Assembly: GCF_010015585.1 (NCBI RefSeq)
Contig: NW_022985076.1
Span: 550,764 to 614,763 of the forward strand
DNA: 64,000 bases
Source of the DNA: Eremomyces bilateralis CBS 781.70
Taxonomy: Eukaryota; Ascomycota; Dothideomycetes; Eremomycetales; Eremomycetaceae
Direction: 5' to 3'
Part shown: positions 15,301 to 57,331 of the stretch, piece by piece
Layout of the letters: each line of letters begins with the position of its first letter
Position numbering within the stretch: position 1 is the first letter of the stretch
Notes under the pieces: generated by a model
Database searches by the model: none
The model's input: only the letters and a program-made list of their open reading frames with translations
Told to the model about the DNA's origin: nothing
Translations under genes and position numbers: made by a program

Positions 15301-15497
15301 GTGGGCCGGATCTCGTATCTTGGAACGACTCATGGGCGATCTGATTTCGTGTGTGCACAGTGCCTGTATTATGGAATTGAATCTAACTGACGCGACTTCG
15401 TAAGTTCGTATTGTATTCCTAAGTAATCAATAGGATAAATCTTGTCCGTGGTGTGTCAGTATAATTCGTTGGCGTTGTACCATACACACAGTAGTTA

Positions 15498-17309
15498 AGT
15501 TCAACCCCCTGTCAAGTAGCCAACCACTCGAGTAGCCAGTATCACCATCTCAACCTCCATCGGTCAGACAGCAATATCTCTACTAAAACATATTATATTT
15601 GGAAATCTATACAGCATGATTCAAAAGATACAGCTTGGAGAGACTCTGATGTAGATTTGGCCTCCGAAATTGGATGTCTTCGTTGGTAATCTTCCTCTAC
15701 CGCTCGTACAGCTTCTTGTGCCAATTTGATCTCCCGAACTTGCGCAAACCTCTGATTAAGATCTATCTGAACTTTCTTTTTACGTTTTGGTGCTGTAGCA
15801 GCATCAAGGCGTGCCTGTAAGCCCGCGATTTTCAGATCTGATGAGGCCTGACGCGCCTGTAGCACTCCGATCGCCTTGGCTGCCTTCTCTATATACGACT
15901 TCGTCGTCTTTGCCACGCGTGTATTCTTGCTAAGAACGCGTAATGCACTCTGTACCTGTTTTGGCTTGTAGGGCGTCGTCTGGAGAACGGAGGGGACTGG
16001 TATGGGGGTGCGTGGAGGCGTGTTTGGTGGTGGAATTGGTGGTGCGGTTACGGTAGGCGGTGACGGTACAACGAAGCGGTTACTGAGGCCCTTTGACCGG
16101 TCAAACGGCACAAGTCCTGCAGCCTTCCACCCAGATCTGATTGTACGGTCGGTTAGGCGTGCCTGACGTGCCTCTGCATAGAGGACAATGAATCTCCGTC
16201 GTTTAATCGGTAGGGCCTCGTCGATATACGCGCTTTGGCGGAGGAGGGTCTTATAAAAGCGTTTTAGAGGCGAAAAACAGGCGAGATCCAGAGGTTGAAG
16301 GATATGGGAGGTATGTGCAGGTAGGAAGACCACGATTACGTTGTTTATCTTGCATTCGTACAAGAAATCGATGGTTGCGTGGCTACCGTGCCCGTCCATT
16401 AGCAGAATCCGGTACTGCCGCTGTGTAGCGGTTTCAGGCAGGAAAACCGTACGGAGCCAAACCAACGCGTGTTGATTTGAAGTCCAGCCGTTCTCTGATA
16501 CCGTATAATGGAAGTCTGGAGGTTGTTCAGGGAACCAAGAAGACTGTAACGTGGCGCCTTTCTGTATAATCGCTGGTCTGATGTACTGGCCGGTCGCGGA
16601 GACAGTTTCAACGATACTAATCCATTCGCGGCCCATAGGACTAGTGATATAGGCCGTTGACTTCTGCGAGTCTGCGATAACCGTAGAATTAGCGCAAATC
16701 CCTAGTCCTATACCAACCTCATCCATATTCCAGGTATCAGAGGGGTGGACATCGTACTGAGTTTGAACTTGGTGAAAATACGTGTAGAACGCGTCGATTG
16801 TATCCTTAGTTGCAGCCTGACGTCGGGCAACATCAAGACTACGCCCGATACAGGTCGCAACGCGTGGATTACGGTGTAGGAAACGCGTTACCCAGTTCTT
16901 CCCGAGGGGCGTTGAGTCTCCTTGGAGGCGTAGAACTCGAGATGCCATTTCGCGAAGCCGTGCGTGAGTAGGGGGGAATCCTTGAGCGTCATTTTCAAGT
17001 ATCCAGTCGACTAAAAAGGATTCTTGGTCCGGTGTAAGGCGTTGGCGAGATTGTTGAGCTACTACGCGTGGTAGGCGGCCTTTTAAGCGGGTTTGAAGGG
17101 TGCGTCGGTTGACCTTGAATAGCGCCGCAGCTTCGTTTTGTGATTTGCATTGACCGGTCTGTAAGGCATCAATAGCCTGTTGGACCGGGTCTTCCGAGTT
17201 TGGTATCATGATATTGTACGGTGGTGGAGATATCGCGGTTAGAGAGATGGTGATAGAGGTGGTGATACTGGCTACTCGAGTGGTTGGCTACTTGACAGGG
17301 GGTTGAACT
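15498..17309 (-). mobile_element. Fot1/pogo-family DNA transposon, apparently intact
   Basis: An 1812-bp element bounded by 50-bp perfect terminal inverted repeats (15498-15547 and 17260-17309, beginning AGTTCAACCCCCTGTCAAGT) and by the TA target duplication typical of Tc1/mariner superfamily insertions (15496-15497 and 17310-17311). It carries one uninterrupted transposase gene. The identical ends and whole ORF suggest recent insertion and possibly an autonomous copy. The intergenic base composition and other repeats around it mark the left edge of an accessory island. Confidence 0.93.
15593..17209 (-). CDS. Fot1/pogo-type transposase (DDE_1)
   Basis: A 538-residue transposase without introns. 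The N terminus has a psq-type helix-turn-helix (about residues 8-45, with SQNEAAALFKVNRRTLQTRLKG), followed by a CENP-B-like DNA-binding domain (about 55-125, ending in NWVTRFLHRNP). The DDE_1 catalytic core contains Asp163 (NMDEVG), Asp272 (LLMDGHGSH) and Asp308 (ILQPLDLACF), a DD35D spacing like Fot1 relatives. The C-terminal region has a Pro-rich linker and a basic coiled-coil-like stretch ending KRKKKVQ, a possible nuclear signal. All three catalytic acids are present, so it may be functional. It fills nearly the whole element. Confidence 0.95.
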   Translation of the reverse strand: MIPNSEDPVQQAIDALQTGQCKSQNEAAALFKVNRRTLQTRLKGRLPRVVAQQSRQRLTPDQESFLVDWILENDAQGFPPTHARLREMASRVLRLQGDSTPLGKNWVTRFLHRNPRVATCIGRSLDVARRQAATKDTIDAFYTYFHQVQTQYDVHPSDTWNMDEVGIGLGICANSTVIADSQKSTAYITSPMGREWISIVETVSATGQYIRPAIIQKGATLQSSWFPEQPPDFHYTVSENGWTSNQHALVWLRTVFLPETATQRQYRILLMDGHGSHATIDFLYECKINNVIVVFLPAHTSHILQPLDLACFSPLKRFYKTLLRQSAYIDEALPIKRRRFIVLYAEARQARLTDRTIRSGWKAAGLVPFDRSKGLSNRFVVPSPPTVTAPPIPPPNTPPRTPIPVPSVLQTTPYKPKQVQSALRVLSKNTRVAKTTKSYIEKAAKAIGVLQARQASSDLKIAGLQARLDAATAPKRKKKVQIDLNQRFAQVREIKLAQEAVRAVEEDYQRRHPISEAKSTSESLQAVSFESCCIDFQI

Positions 17310-18133
17310 TAATGGAAACCCTTCGCTGCAGGCGTTTGCGCGGATGCCAAGCGCCGTGCTAGCGCCGTGAAATCTAACGGTTCTGTACGGTAAAATATAT
17401 TTATGTCATGTTCGTTGTGTCCCGATCGGGCCTTCGCTAGCCGCCTAGCCGCCGTTCCTGCGGCTACTCCCTCTCGTCCCTCGTGCAAATCCCTGCTGCC
17501 TTGACTTTGCTCCAAACTGTTGCCGCCATCGAAATCCTCACTCCCGTAATGTAATCCGTAAACCGTATTCCGTTGGTTGTTTAGACTTAAACTGTGGTTG
17601 GCTAACTAGCGGGGGGTTGAACTTATTCTCTACGCCACTGCAAAGCCTAAACAGATTATGCTTTTCGCTAATGGAGCGGCATTATATTGCCGACCCTGAT
17701 CGTAACACCAAGATGTTGCCATGCAAGACATTACTCGCGCAGAATCAGATATTCGCTGAGCCGATTATATCATCCCTGTCACGGTATGGGTTATCGTGAA
17801 GGAGATTAGTTGATGCCTTGAGATGAGTTGAGATGCTACAGGATCCGGTCTCGCGCAAGTGGCGCGTGTGGTCCTCATTTCGCCGGTGGTCTTCATCCAC
17901 CCACGCATACCGTGATCCTGCCATCTCTCTTTTCCTTCTTTAGCTTTGAAGTTACAACAGAAACCGTTCTACAGTGCCCAACCTGTGAGGTTTATTGGTT
18001 GTTACAATCCCTGCCTGCTGTCTCTTGGGAATATGTACATGCTCGCTTTGTCTGTCTCGACTTTTTAGAGCTTCATTGCAGATGGTCATCTCGATTGCAC
18101 CCAAGACGGCAGGGTTCTGCGATCACCGATGCA
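17310..18133. other. Region between the pogo element and the rhodopsin-domain gene
   Basis: Contains a solitary terminal repeat related to the pogo element (17597-17623, listed separately) and the 5' side of the membrane-protein gene. The membrane protein frame is open upstream to 17828, but the conserved start is at 18134. The stretch 17311-17596 may be the inner remains of a second, degraded pogo-like element; I found no transposase sequence in it. Confidence 0.4.
17597..17623 (-). repeat. Solitary pogo-type terminal repeat (relic)
   Basis: GTTGGCTAACTAGCGGGGGG followed by TTGAACT and then TA matches the right end of the neighbouring transposon (GTTGGCTACTTGACAGGGGG then TTGAACT, TA) with a few changes. 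It lies 314 bp outside that end in the same orientation, so it looks like the end of an older, related element into or beside which the intact one inserted. Confidence 0.6.
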
Positions 18134-30429: not shown

Positions 30430-32573
30430 ATGGAGAAAATCACCAACAAAATCCAAGCCCTGCCCGAGAACGGCACTTACTTCTCTCTGGAATTCTTCCC
30501 TCCTAAGACCCAGATCGTCCGTCCCCCACCCCCATCCGTCGTTCATATTTAAAAACTAACCTCCCCAGGGCCTTGACAACCTCGTCGCCCGCTTGGAGCG
30601 CATGTCCGGCGCCCTTCGCCCACTCTTCGTCAATGTCACCTGGGGCGCGGGCGGCAGCACCGCCGGCAAGTCGCTGCAGCTAGCGGAAATCTGCCAGAAG
30701 AAGCTCGGGCTGACCACCTGCTTGCACCTGACGTGCACGAACATGAGCCGGGCACTCGTCGACGACGCGTTGGAGAAGGCAAAGGCGATGGGGATTCGGA
30801 ACATCCTGGCGCTGCGGGGGGATCCGCCGCGGAGCGAGGAGTACGCCATTGTGGACGGGGAGAATGGGGAGCTGGACGGCGATTCGAATGATGAGTTTAA
30901 GTGGGCGACGGATCTGGTGAGATATATCCGGGAGCAGCATGGTGACTACTTCTGCGTGGGTGTGGCGACGTATCCCGAGGGCCATTCGGACCAGTCGCAT
31001 CCGGAGCACCAAGATCCGCTATTCGATCTGCCATATCTCGTCGAGAAGACGGTGGCGGGCGCGGATTTCATCATGTCGCAGTTATTTTATGACGTGTCCA
31101 AGTTCGACGAGCACGAGCGGATGCTCCGAGAACATCCCTCGGGCGCGTTCAAGGACATCCCGATCATCCCGGGTTTGATGCCTATCCAGAGCTACCAGAT
31201 CCTGCGACGGGTGACGAAGTTGAGCCATGCGAGCATCCCGCCAGAACTACTAGAGCGATTGGATCAAGTGAAGACCGACGACGAGGAAGTGAAGCGCGTG
31301 GGCGTGGAAATCCTGGGCGAGGTAATCCAGCACATTCTGCAGAAACCAGCCGTGGCCCACAAAGGCTTCCATTTCTACACGCTCAATCTCGAGAAAGTCG
31401 TCTCTCAGATCATCGAAGAAGGCGGCCTGATCCCCCTCTTCTCCATATCCGACGACGAAGCTGTTTCCAGCGCCGAAGCCTCGCCCGTCCGCAACCTGGA
31501 GAAGGTCCGAAGTCGTCTCTCGTCCATGAACTCCAACCCACACAATCGCGTCCTCGTCGAGAAAGCCGCGGACGTCCACAACACCGACTTCGAAGTACAA
31601 GAAGGGGAAGCCGGCATCCCGTCCGTCAGCAGCCGCGCGAACACCCTCGCCATCTCGGAAGGCGAGGGCGCCCTGGGCCGTGAAGCGACCTGGGATGACT
31701 ACCCGAACGGCCGTTGGGGCGACGCGCGCTCCCCTGCGTTCGGCGAGATCGATGGGTATGGCGTGTCCCTTCGCGTGTCCACCACCGAGGCGGTCAAAAT
31801 GTGGTCGTATCCCGTCACCGCAGCGGATATCAACGAGGTGTTCCGAAAATATATCAATGGCGAGATCCAGGGGATCCCATGGAGCGAGGAAGGGTTGAGC
31901 GCCGAATCCGAACCGATACGAGAGCAGCTAGGGAAGCTGAACGCGAAAGGATGGTGGACGATTGCGAGTCAGCCGGCTGTGAATGGGTTGAGGAGTGATG
32001 ATAAGGTCTTTGGATGGGGGCCTAAGGCTGGGTTTGTGTACCAAAAGGTAAGTCCCTTAATGAGGAAGTCAGGAGTGATTGACAATGGCATCGTATATTG
32101 CTCATGGCTGACACACCTCTTTTCCTGCTAGGCGTTCGTTGAGTTCTTCGTACCGTCGAAAGACTGGGACACCCTTCGTGAACGACTCGCCAATGAAGAC
32201 GAAGTCACGTATTTTGCTGGCAACTTTGCCGGTTCCACCTCCGCATCCGATATCGAGTCAGTCAATCCAGTGACCTGGGGCGCCTTTAATGGAAAAGAGT
32301 ACGTATTCCAGTCCCGCATAATTCTTACCAACCACCCCATGTCTAACGCCTAAAACCATTAGGATCATCACGCCAACCATTATCGAAACGGTGTCGTTCC
32401 ACGCCTGGCGGGAAGAGGCGTTCTCCCTGTGGAGCGAGTGGCAGCGGATCTATCCTCCCAAGTCGGCGACGTCCAAGTTGCTGGAGGGGGTGAAAAAGGA
32501 TTTGTGGTTGGTGAACGTGATTCATCATCGGTTCATGGACAAAGATGCGTTGTGGGAGTTGCTGTTACGCTAA
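30430..32573 (+). CDS. MET13: Methylenetetrahydrofolate reductase
   Basis: Reduces 5,10-methylene-THF to 5-methyl-THF, the methyl donor for methionine synthesis. Four exons: 30430-30516, 30569-32047, 32132-32298, 32363-32573; 647 residues. The N-terminal catalytic TIM barrel shows FSLEFFPPKTQ (the conserved Glu/FAD region), LFVNVTWGAGGST, CLHLTCTNMSR, ALRGDPPR and the substrate/FAD loop IPGLMPIQSY. The C-terminal regulatory domain has NGRWGDARSPAFGE and WTIASQPAVNG. Fungi have two MTHFR paralogues; I cannot tell from sequence alone which one (Met12 or Met13 type) this is, so the symbol is tentative. Intron 1 uses the less usual donor GTCCGT. Confidence 0.94.
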
Positions 32574-32861
32574 CTGGGGGAAGGAGGGCTTCTGGGTCGC
32601 ATTCGAGGGACATCCGTGCCACGTCAATAGAATTTGGAATCAATCGGAGAGAGCATCTACGGGATTACCATGTACCTTAAGTGCAAGATAAGCATCACAT
32701 TTTTAAGAAGAGCTGGCATTACACCAATCATTACAGTAGAAAGCGTGCGACCCTGAATTCCCAACGCCTTTCATCCCAACGGTACAATTTGGCCCATCAA
32801 GAGTGTCCCTGCCGGTTCAAGAAGCAAACATCGACTCTCAGCCTCGGCTAGACTTTCAGAC

Positions 32862-33079
32862 TTAATGCTATACATGCAGGAGATGTGGTTAGTCACATAT
32901 TCTTGTGTTTGAGAAACCATACAAGAAAATGGGAGGTTGTACCGAACACGAACCGCAGCCACAGCTGTTGCAATCGCCAGCACATCCGCAGGTTGAGCAG
33001 GAGCTAGCAAAGGGTATAATGTTAGCAAGAGTGGGCGGACTCTGTGCCTGGTTTCGGGGGGCATTTACCAAGCAGGCAT
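32862..33079 (-). CDS. Metallothionein, 25 residues, three exons
   Basis: A very small Cys-rich metal-binding protein of the fungal metallothionein type. Exons on the - strand: 33079-33069 (11 nt), 33003-32943 (61 nt), 32867-32862 (6 nt, His and stop). Intron 1 has donor GTAAAT, branch TTGCTAACA and acceptor CTAG; intron 2 has donor GTACAA, branch GACTAAC and acceptor TATAG. The 25-residue product has eight Cys at positions 4, 6, 9, 11, 15, 18, 20 and 23, with CxC and CxxC spacing, otherwise Gly, Ser, Ala, Asp and Asn, and no aromatic residues, like the 25-residue Neurospora copper metallothionein. Without intron 2 the frame would run to 32889 and give 42 residues with a non-metallothionein tail. 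Expected role: Cu/Zn/Cd buffering and detoxification in the cytosol. Convergent with MTHFR. Confidence 0.75.
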
Positions 33080-34384
33080 ATTGAAAGGTCTGATCGAAGG
33101 CGTCTTGAAATGACCGAGTAGTTGAAATCTGGCGGATATCCGTTTGATTCTTTTGTCTCGAAACGTTGTCTCGATAGAGAAGTCTCCAAACCAGTCTCAG
33201 GAGGCATTCTGGTTCCTTATATGTCTCTCCGGCCTCAGCGGATCTTCCAGTTTCTTCCCGTATCCGTCCTCAACCCCGCCCACAATTCAGCATCCACCCA
33301 ATATGGGATCATCTGCCTGCGCCTGACGATGACATTGGAAGTTCCGAAGCAGCCAAGGAGTGTATGGTGATGTCGGGTGATTTGGCAACCCATGCAAGCC
33401 TGTCCAACTTCATTCTACTGGATGGCCTTGACTTGGGATAAGGATGACATGCAGCAGCCACACGCATCAGCATCATCGGGACTAGGAGTAATTGGCCGAT
33501 ATGCCGATTCCCTTATGTAAAAAGCATATATAAAGGTGTGGTCCAGCAATCATCCGGGGAGGATACCGGGAATACCCCACGCCGTGGTATATCTGACCTA
33601 CTGGTGCGGGGAGGGGTGTGGATCGGGCCGTTCCATCGAGCAAGATTGGTCCACCGCGCCACTCAATGATATAGTAAAGCATAGCGATGATAAGCTCGGC
33701 GTTGGGTGCGCGGCCTTGATGCTATACGTAGCCCGCTCTCAGTGGACAACAGTTCCATGGGCCAGACGCTGTGTCACATCAAATGCAGGGTCAGCTGACT
33801 TGGAATGCATGTGAATTCTGATTATGGGGTACTGACGGGATAGGGAATATTTGCTAGAACCGTTTGTAAATGCAGATGACAGAGTGATACCTGGTTGAGG
33901 TGGGACGTAACTAGAGAGACGAACACCCCCAATACATGTCCCGAAAAGCCGCTTGGCAAAGATACAGCCATAAGACGCGGCTGAACAGGAGAGAACGGAT
34001 CCTAAAATTGGGTTCGGGGGTGTACATTCGGGTCGGAACTGAGTAGTGAAGACAGAAGTAGTGCGTTTTGAGTTAGGTATCGTGCTGGCATGAGAAAAAA
34101 TAGACTCTGAATTCGAACTTGTAGCATCGATTCCTCTTGTGAAAACAAAATTTGGTATCATACAAACCGAAATCTGGTATCGTAATTTCCGCCGTGGTAT
34201 AAATCCATTCCCTGCTCCCTCCATCCAATTCGGCCGCAAATGTCCCTGGGAACCGAAGGAGCGAAATCCCCATAGAACACCGTCCGTTGCGGCTGCCTGT
34301 CACATAACTCATTCCAATCCATGTTGTAGGGAGAATCACCACCGCGACCCCACGCTGCTCATTCGACCGCGCCGATCATCCATT
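33080..34384. other. Intergenic between metallothionein and F-box gene
   Basis: The left part is the metallothionein promoter, with a TATA-like box listed separately. The remaining kilobase holds no gene that I recognise. No clear copper or metal response element was identified. Confidence 0.4.
33217..33223 (-). promoter_or_regulatory. TATA-like box upstream of the metallothionein
   Basis: CATATAA on the - strand about 140 bp upstream of the metallothionein ATG. Position and sequence suit a TATA box of a strongly inducible gene; it may also be a chance AT run. Confidence 0.3.
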
Positions 34385-36215
34385 CTAACGGAACAGATCC
34401 CCCCGGGTCTTCTTCGCATACTCCTGCAACATCTTCCTCTCATTCTCATCCAACTGCCGGCTTCCCATGCTCCTCGTACTATGACTACTCGACGGCCTCC
34501 GTCCATCGGGCTCCGGGGGCAACGGTAGCGCCAAGAACCCGCCATCGTCCCGGGGCACCACCATGCTCTTCCGCGCCTGACCACGCCAGGACGGCCCCAG
34601 GCCGCGACTGTGGCTGTACGTAGATAGGGGACGCGTGCCGCCCGAGCTGTCCGCGAGGTCGTCGAGGGAGACGATGCTGCTGCGGTTGTTCGCGGGGGGT
34701 TGGTAGAGGTTGGGAGCTTCGTAGGCCGAGGAGCCGGGAAGGTGAGTGATGTCGTAGCCTAGTTCTTCGAGGATCTCGTCGAACATGTGGGTTTGGGAGG
34801 GTTGCTTTTTTGCGAAAATGGTGAGCGGCTGCGTTAGCCCATAGGCGGGGAGGGAAGGGGCAGAGGAACCGAATTGGAATGAGGGCGGGACGAGATCGAG
34901 ACGGTCCGCGAAGTGTTCTTCACGGACCCAAAGCTTGCGTAGAGAGATGAGGCCCTGCGAGAGGAGGCTATGTGAGAGGTAGGCGTAGTGGCTATCAGTC
35001 ATTCCTTGGGTTGCTGGATTGTCGATGTTCCAGTTGACCTCGTAATGGAGGTTGACCAGACGAGGACTGAAGAGGGGGGGAATCGGGTCGAGTGGGAAGC
35101 GCTCGTTGATTTCCCTGGAATATGTGAGTGTTAGCAGGTAAGGCGCCGCCTCGAGGACAAGATGCAGGTCTTTGGTCTGGATCTGGGTTTCTGTAAGGGT
35201 CAAGGTTTGGAGAGTTCGTGCCACGTCGGGGCGGCAGAGGTAGCTCTGTAGGCCTTCCGCGGTGATTTGGGGAGACTTGTCAATGGAAAGGGAGGACAGA
35301 GCACGGAGGTTTGGAGCTACCGGACTTTCTAAAAAGACCTTGTCATCGATGCCTCCCATGTTAATCAGCTCCAGCTCCGTCAGCGAGGGAAGTTTGGCCA
35401 GGGCGATACGCATGGAGGCGTTATCCAGATCCAGACTTATGAGTGTCAAGGTCGTCAAATGTGGCCACAGACCGCGCTGGAGTTTCGCGAAGTGCGGCTC
35501 CGACCCATGGTCATATTTCATCTTTTGCAGGAATTGACACCGTGCTTCCAGCTCGGCACGTAGCGGCTCGCACGACTGCTTTCCCTTGAAGATCTCGTCG
35601 GGTAGATCGATGTAGAGGAGATTGGGCATGGCGCCCACAGCTCGAGCGAGGTCACCGTACGAGTCCCGGTCATCGCGGCAACGCGGGGGCATCTTGAAGA
35701 ACCGCACTTGAGCGGCCAGCCCACGGTTACTGCGTAAAGCACCCGCTAGGAGCTTGAGCGATTCGGCCACTTGCGTCGGGCCATCCTTGCCGGACTTTTG
35801 GCGCTTGAGTTCAATAACCAGGCGAAGGTCGCATTCGTGGAAAGCATCCAAGCGGATGGAGTAGTAGCTGTATGGGTCGTCAGCGCAACGGTCAAGAGTG
35901 GACTTTGGGAGCGTACAGGACGGCACGGACTGGGACAACCCAGGCCCTCCTCACTCTGGCGCAGCGAGCGAGATCCTGCACGTCGCAGCAGCGGCACGAC
36001 TGGACCAAGCTGACGCTCTCATTGGAATCGAAGCTGTAATCGGTCGTGTGCGGACAAACGAAGCGGAAGATGTTCTCGAGCACATTCGAGGGAAGACGTG
36101 CGACGTAGTCCAGTCGCGGATCGATGGGAGAGCCCCAGAGATCCTCTCTCCTCTCAGGCTTCTCCTTCACCCGCTGCTTGGACTTTCGCCGGAACGCGTT
36201 CTTCAGGAAGCCCAT
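34385..36215 (-). CDS. F-box/LRR-like protein, filamentous-fungal type
   Basis: Likely SCF ubiquitin-ligase adaptor of unknown target. Two exons on the - strand: 36215-35917 and 35867-34385 (intron 35868-35916, acceptor CATACAG); 593 residues. The N terminus MGFLKNAFRRKSKQRVKEK is basic; an F-box-like segment follows (YVARLPSNVLENIFRFVCP, about residues 36-54), then a Cys-rich piece, CRCCDVQDLARCARV. The middle contains leucine-rich-repeat-like segments (LTTLTLISLDLDNA, LTELELINMGG, LQTLTLTETQ). The C terminus is Ser/Pro/Arg rich and probably disordered. The exon join VRAVLYYSIRLDAF agrees with the family. Function beyond F-box adaptor is unknown. Confidence 0.8.
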
Positions 36216-56902: not shown

Positions 56903-57331
56903 TCACAAGTACCCTTTTCTTGCAAGTTCAACCTTTCGCAACGTCTCCCCCTCCTTAAACCCCCCTTTGCTGGCGCAAATCGCAATGCCTTCGCCGAGCT
57001 CGACTTTCTCTTCGTGTTTCTCGAACGCACATGGGCAGTGATGAGGGAAATGGACACATGCTAAAGTGCCCGGGCAGAGGTATTTCGAGCATCGAGCTGG
57101 TAACAGGTGTTAGTGCCACGTATTGAACGGACGGCCGACCTTGCTCCACATACCGGCTTCATAGTTTTGACGATACCACTCCGGCGTGCTCGGACTGTCT
57201 TGTGGTTGCTGCTGCTGTTCTCCTGCTCCGAACATTTGTTGGAAGAAGCCATCGAACTGCGCGCTGACGGGGAGGAGGAGGGAGAGGAAGACGAAGCTGA
57301 AGACCACGACGAGGATGTTGATTCGCGCCAT
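56903..57331 (-). CDS. LCL2: Long chronological lifespan protein 2
   Basis: Small secretory-pathway protein; deletion of the yeast gene affects chronological lifespan and its biochemical role is unclear. Two exons on the - strand, 57331-57154 and 57096-56903; 123 residues. The signal peptide ([21 protein letters not shown]) is followed by [18 protein letters not shown]. The conserved Cys-rich block is in exon 2: [21 protein letters not shown], then [23 protein letters not shown]. Six Cys in the mature part suggest disulphides in the ER or outside the cell. The ATG at 57331 (MARINIL) is the family start; a frame open to 57352 uses a non-ATG codon. Confidence 0.93.

Follow-up and report, generated by a model that had tools for sequence, protein, structure and literature searches.

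A candidate three-exon gene for a short, cysteine-rich metallothionein of a filamentous ascomycete

Among the short fungal metallothioneins, CAP5 of Colletotrichum gloeosporioides is, in the provisional sequence used here, a peptide of 27 residues with eight Cys, which are arranged in a CSCxxCG...CAGxCxSCxCGSCSH frame with an SCSH end. The copper metallothionein of Neurospora crassa (PDB 1t2y) consists of approximately 25 residues, is rich in Cys, Gly, and Ser, contains CxC motifs, and has no aromatic residues. The fungal metallothioneins of family 8 (Neurospora/Agaricus) have the Cys pattern X2-[CXC]-X5-[CXC]-X3-[CXC]-X2-C-X3 (PMC4755600). Small Cys-rich putative metallothionein genes of the CmtA/CrdA type (CRD2-like) are found in Aspergillus. 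Two introns are predicted in A. oryzae cmtA, which was found via tBLASTn and not via BLASTp (PMC10030727), and CrdA of A. nidulans, the named ortholog of CmtA (PMC6762210), is described as a 109-residue protein that contains 16 Cys and lacks His (PMC5447758). Magnaporthe Mmt1 is a further small and divergent fungal metallothionein, and families of this kind do not cluster by BLASTP (PMC2409186). PMC3532157 concerns a plant metallothionein.

In this study, we analyzed a candidate metallothionein gene on the minus strand of a 64,000-nt stretch of DNA (the window, meaning the whole stretch analyzed). An earlier note on this DNA had claimed three exons of 11, 61, and 6 nt with a 25-residue product and junctions at 33068/33004 and 32942/32868, and a base-by-base check verified the exons, the product, and the junction coordinates. 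The features of the gene model are as follows.

33069-33079, minus strand: exon 1, 11 nt, ATGCCTGCTTG, encoding Met-Pro-Ala and ending two bases into the Cys4 codon
33004-33068, minus strand: intron 1, 65 nt, with a GTAAAT donor, a TGCTAAC branch site, and a CTAG acceptor
32943-33003, minus strand: exon 2, 61 nt, with the last base of the first Cys codon and seven further Cys codons that are uninterrupted
32868-32942, minus strand: intron 2, 75 nt, with a weak GTACAA donor, a GACTAAC branch site, and a TATAG acceptor
32862-32867, minus strand: exon 3, CATTAA, encoding His25 and the stop

Splicing of the minus strand from 33079 to 32862 yields MPACSCSTCGCAGDCNSCGCGSCSH, in which eight of the 25 residues are Cys, with the spacing x3-CxC-x2-CxC-x3-C-x2-CxC-x2-C-x2, and from which Phe, Trp, and Tyr are absent. 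The Cys content, the CxC/CxxC spacing, and the lack of aromatic residues had all been claimed before and match this translation. The first Cys codon is interrupted by intron 1, and the last exon does contribute only His and a stop. Both introns are longer than exons 1 and 3, as had also been pointed out, and longer than exon 2 as well. If intron 1 were retained, the reading frame would end after MPAW, and retention of intron 2 would lengthen the product to 41 residues, with SVQPPIFLYGFSNTRICD as its C-terminal tail. The locus allows a three-exon gene in which Cys makes up one third of the product, and the general traits of metallothioneins (short length, eight Cys in 25 residues, three CxC motifs, and no Phe, Trp, or Tyr) fit this product. 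We consider it, with a probability of approximately 0.8, to be a genuine gene of a filamentous ascomycete that encodes a short metallothionein.

The interpretation of the peptide as a metallothionein remains the best reading, together with its exon structure, while the choice of Neurospora as the comparator did not survive the comparison of Cys patterns. The Neurospora peptide has seven Cys with gaps of 1, 5, 1, 3, 1, and 2 residues, whereas the candidate has eight with gaps of 1, 2, 1, 3, 2, 1, and 2; the family 8 pattern fits the former and fails on the latter. Since the candidate fails this seven-Cys pattern, Neurospora is not its closest comparator. The alignment score of the two peptides was not above that of shuffled sequences, being reached by 341 of 2000 full shuffles and by 1647 of 2000 shuffles in which the Cys were fixed. 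An alignment with the provisional CAP5 sequence, which needs a single gap of two residues, shows identity at 18 of the 25 positions, and its score was reached by none of 2000 full and none of 2000 Cys-fixed shuffles; the support that it lends is only as good as this provisional reference. The CAP5 sequence so taken has two residues more between the third and fourth Cys than the candidate; the eight Cys, the CSC start, and the SCSH end would be common to both. Text searches of the literature found no printed pieces of the CAP5 sequence, one paper that prints the Neurospora sequence, and no fungal metallothionein with an SCSH end. A literature search for fungal metallothioneins with two introns brought up one paper, on rice, and a search for those of Penicillium and Talaromyces brought up none of use among the 12 papers listed out of 73. 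Should the provisional CAP5 sequence be correct, the His at the C-terminus would be an old, inherited feature of the family, and intron 2 would gain independent support. The earlier note had regarded this His as a ligand added relative to Neurospora, whose peptide ends in CGSK without a His. That proposal was built on the wrong relative; the provisional CAP5 sequence, with eight Cys, ends in SCSH just as the candidate does. Most likely, His25 was inherited as the terminal residue of a CAP5-like lineage, and it would serve as an auxiliary ligand at most. When compared by description, the traits of the CmtA/CrdA (CRD2-like) proteins (approximately 100 residues, 16 Cys, and no His) are absent from the candidate, which has 25 residues, eight Cys, and one His. 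Mmt1 resembles the candidate as a small divergent fungal metallothionein.

Searches of Pfam returned no family for the candidate peptide, nor for the Neurospora metallothionein or the provisional CAP5 sequence; because these control metallothioneins are also without a match, the silence of Pfam is uninformative. A sequence search of the PDB with the candidate gave no match up to an E value of 10. An exact DNA pattern containing the conserved residues, which demands an unbroken first Cys codon, had no matches in viral contigs, and the DNA pattern likewise had none in the window itself. With a pattern of the Cys alone in the candidate's spacing, the best among the 871 matches listed, at 304 loci, shares 12 of 20 core residues, eight of which are the Cys required by the pattern. 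Looser Cys-only patterns, one of them with the spacing of CAP5, were run on viral contigs and prokaryote genomes, and the matches listed were considered uninformative. All four DNA pattern scans are blind to genes that split the first Cys codon, as the pattern asks for this codon unbroken.

The candidate is convergent with the MTHFR gene on the plus strand (30593-32573), and 288 nt lie between the two stops. One feature of the upstream region was read by eye as a possible core promoter.

33215-33221, minus strand: TATA-like TATAAGG, approximately 140 nt upstream of the ATG

A stricter TATA pattern did not catch the motif at 33221-33215. Within 33300-33080, ATGs are present at 33293 and 33207 only. 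From 33206 on, the first ATG met is that of the gene, which would thus be the first after roughly the point where a transcript driven by TATAAGG would begin. In the 660 nt upstream (33080-33739), there were no Ace1/Cuf1-type sites (0.57 expected) and one TCN3-6GCTG site (1.57 expected, no excess). CCAAT is commoner than expected upstream of the gene (4 vs. 1.39). Scans of the locus for repeats and bacterial promoters gave nothing useful. Two further upstream ORFs lie on the minus strand: one of 166 aa (33739-34239) has no Pfam match, and the other, of 517 aa (34385-35938), has a single match, LRR_At5g56370, at 22.8 bits, which is below the cut-off of 27.

The claim of clean branch sites was borne out, with CTAAC present in both introns; the splice signals overall were not clean, as both donors (GTAAAT and GTACAA) are off consensus and have no G at +5. 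By comparison, six of six nearby introns, which were chosen by eye and are backed by homology or frame, have a +5 G and a +6 T, versus a +5 G in neither of the two introns here.

2094: comparison intron in VMA1
4929: comparison intron in the dynamin gene
32048 and 32299: comparison introns in MTHFR
9281, minus strand: comparison intron in the thiolase gene
29442, minus strand: comparison intron in the UPF0047 gene

The GTACAA donor of intron 2 matches the U1 consensus at only four adjoining positions and is the weakest among the eight donors compared. Because the donors have no G at +5, intron 2 is the least certain part of the model. The weak donors are the chief evidence against the exact model, above all against intron 2.

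Several rival explanations bear on the gene model, and the odds that we attach to these and to the alternative role discussed below are not mutually exclusive. One is that the gene encodes a real metallothionein but keeps intron 2 in some or all of its transcripts, in which case a 41-residue form would terminate at the TAA within the putative intron 2 branch site. The weakness of the donor and the read-through frame, which remains open up to this nearby stop, speak for such retention; the tail, however, is hydrophobic and aromatic, unlike metallothioneins, and the intron has good 3' signals (GACTAAC...TATAG). Moreover, SCSH is also the end of the provisional CAP5 sequence. Twenty-six donor/acceptor pairings, including the proposed one, were considered for intron 2, and seven of them have a CTRAY branch site, among which the proposed pairing alone retains the eight clustered Cys without an added aromatic residue. 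The other six were rejected owing to the loss of Cys23 or the gain of aromatics; for example, the pairing with the donor at 32949 gives eight Cys in 53 residues, yet loses Cys23. Taken together, we regard retention of intron 2 as distinctly unlikely. It is conceivable, although highly improbable in our estimation, that the two weak donors are no accident and that splicing gates the response, being poor at rest and efficient under metal stress. Such a gate would also account for a promoter without copper-factor sites, and the product would be useful only with both introns out, since retention leads to the MPAW stop or to the aromatic-tailed 41-mer. Another explanation is that there is no gene, and that a chance Cys-rich stretch between two genes coincides with chance splice signals or is a piece of another small ORF. 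The locus also overlaps three unspliced ORFs (97, 51, and 61 aa), the longest of which (32771-33064, on the same strand as the candidate) covers most of it in a different frame, although none of the three has a Pfam match. Both donors are weak, and no Pfam family, no relative in viral contigs, and no transcript was found. We scanned all ATG models with zero to two branch-site introns, 18-60 aa, at least six Cys, at least 28% Cys, and no Phe, Trp, or Tyr; the cut-offs were set with the candidate known and the donor rule was loosened afterwards, since a stricter rule (two of four consensus bases) had missed the candidate and given no models in the window and none in 80 shuffles. Under the loosened rule, the whole window yields one model, which is the candidate gene, while none of 200 order-1 and none of 200 order-3 Markov shuffles yields any. 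Stretches of 20 codons with at least seven Cys codons occur at two other places in the window, compared with one in 40 order-1 and none in 40 order-3 shuffles, suggesting that the Markov shuffles understate the clustering of Cys. These two stretches, at 57201-57260 on the plus strand and 53947-53888 on the minus strand, have seven Cys codons each and belong to no spliced model, which lends the chance explanation some weight. Even so, chance would have to supply a start codon, two branch sites, both acceptors, the reading frame, and a stop at once, along with a first Cys codon that intron 1 divides, and such an origin is therefore very unlikely.

We propose that the candidate is most likely a Cu(I)-binding metallothionein that binds copper. 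The transcript would be spliced twice, and the resulting 25-residue peptide would be cytosolic, as it has no hydrophobic leader. On the basis of established copper-thionein chemistry, its eight thiolates may wrap a small Cu(I) cluster. In this way the peptide would buffer copper, perhaps also cadmium or zinc, and would spare other targets until the metal is exported or stored. The Aspergillus and Magnaporthe precedents also raise the alternative that the main role of this cysteine-rich peptide is not metal detoxification but iron-sulfur/glutaredoxin traffic or cell-wall oxidation in infection. In A. fumigatus, CmtA interacts with GrxD, iron starvation represses it, and copper resistance does not depend on it (PMC9072627, PMC6762210), and Mmt1 works in the appressorium wall (PMC9036806); the upstream region of the candidate, moreover, has no standout copper-factor site. 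These precedents are different proteins, CrdA alone having 109 residues (PMC5447758), and overproduction of CmtA partly shielded the crpA deletion from copper (PMC9072627). CrdA of A. nidulans increases with copper, silver, and cadmium, although it is described as dispensable for copper resistance (PMC5447758). The thiol density of the candidate is that of a copper thionein. We thus hold the alternative role to be unlikely, and the dispensability of CmtA and CrdA in Aspergillus nevertheless calls for caution on the role. As to its kind, the candidate is a known type of protein, one more short fungal metallothionein.

With only 78 coding bases in three exons, genes of this type are easily overlooked by gene finders, and the exon model offers a search template that consists of a split first Cys codon, a CSCxxC start, and an SCSH end. 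The template bears on A. nidulans, in which the more severe defect of an aceA mutant was taken to indicate a second copper-detoxification factor, which may be an unrecognized metallothionein or a phytochelatin (PMC5447758). If the fungus studied here is Aspergillus-like, the candidate could, although this is highly improbable, be the second factor behind the residual copper resistance in the A. nidulans work.

The remainder of the window contains other genes and a mobile element. Its intron-bearing genes, together with Fung_rhodopsin and Clr2 domains, suggest that the window is fungal, and the thiolase, dynamin, and VMA1 of the window matched PDB entries. An apparently intact DNA transposon of pogo/Fot1-like type occupies 15495-17312 and carries an ORF for a 538-aa DDE_1/HTH_Tnp_Tc5 transposase on the minus strand (15593-17209). 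Its inverted repeats of 89 nt (15495-15583 and 17224-17312) are 88% complementary, and a portion of the repeat is present again at 17594-17625.
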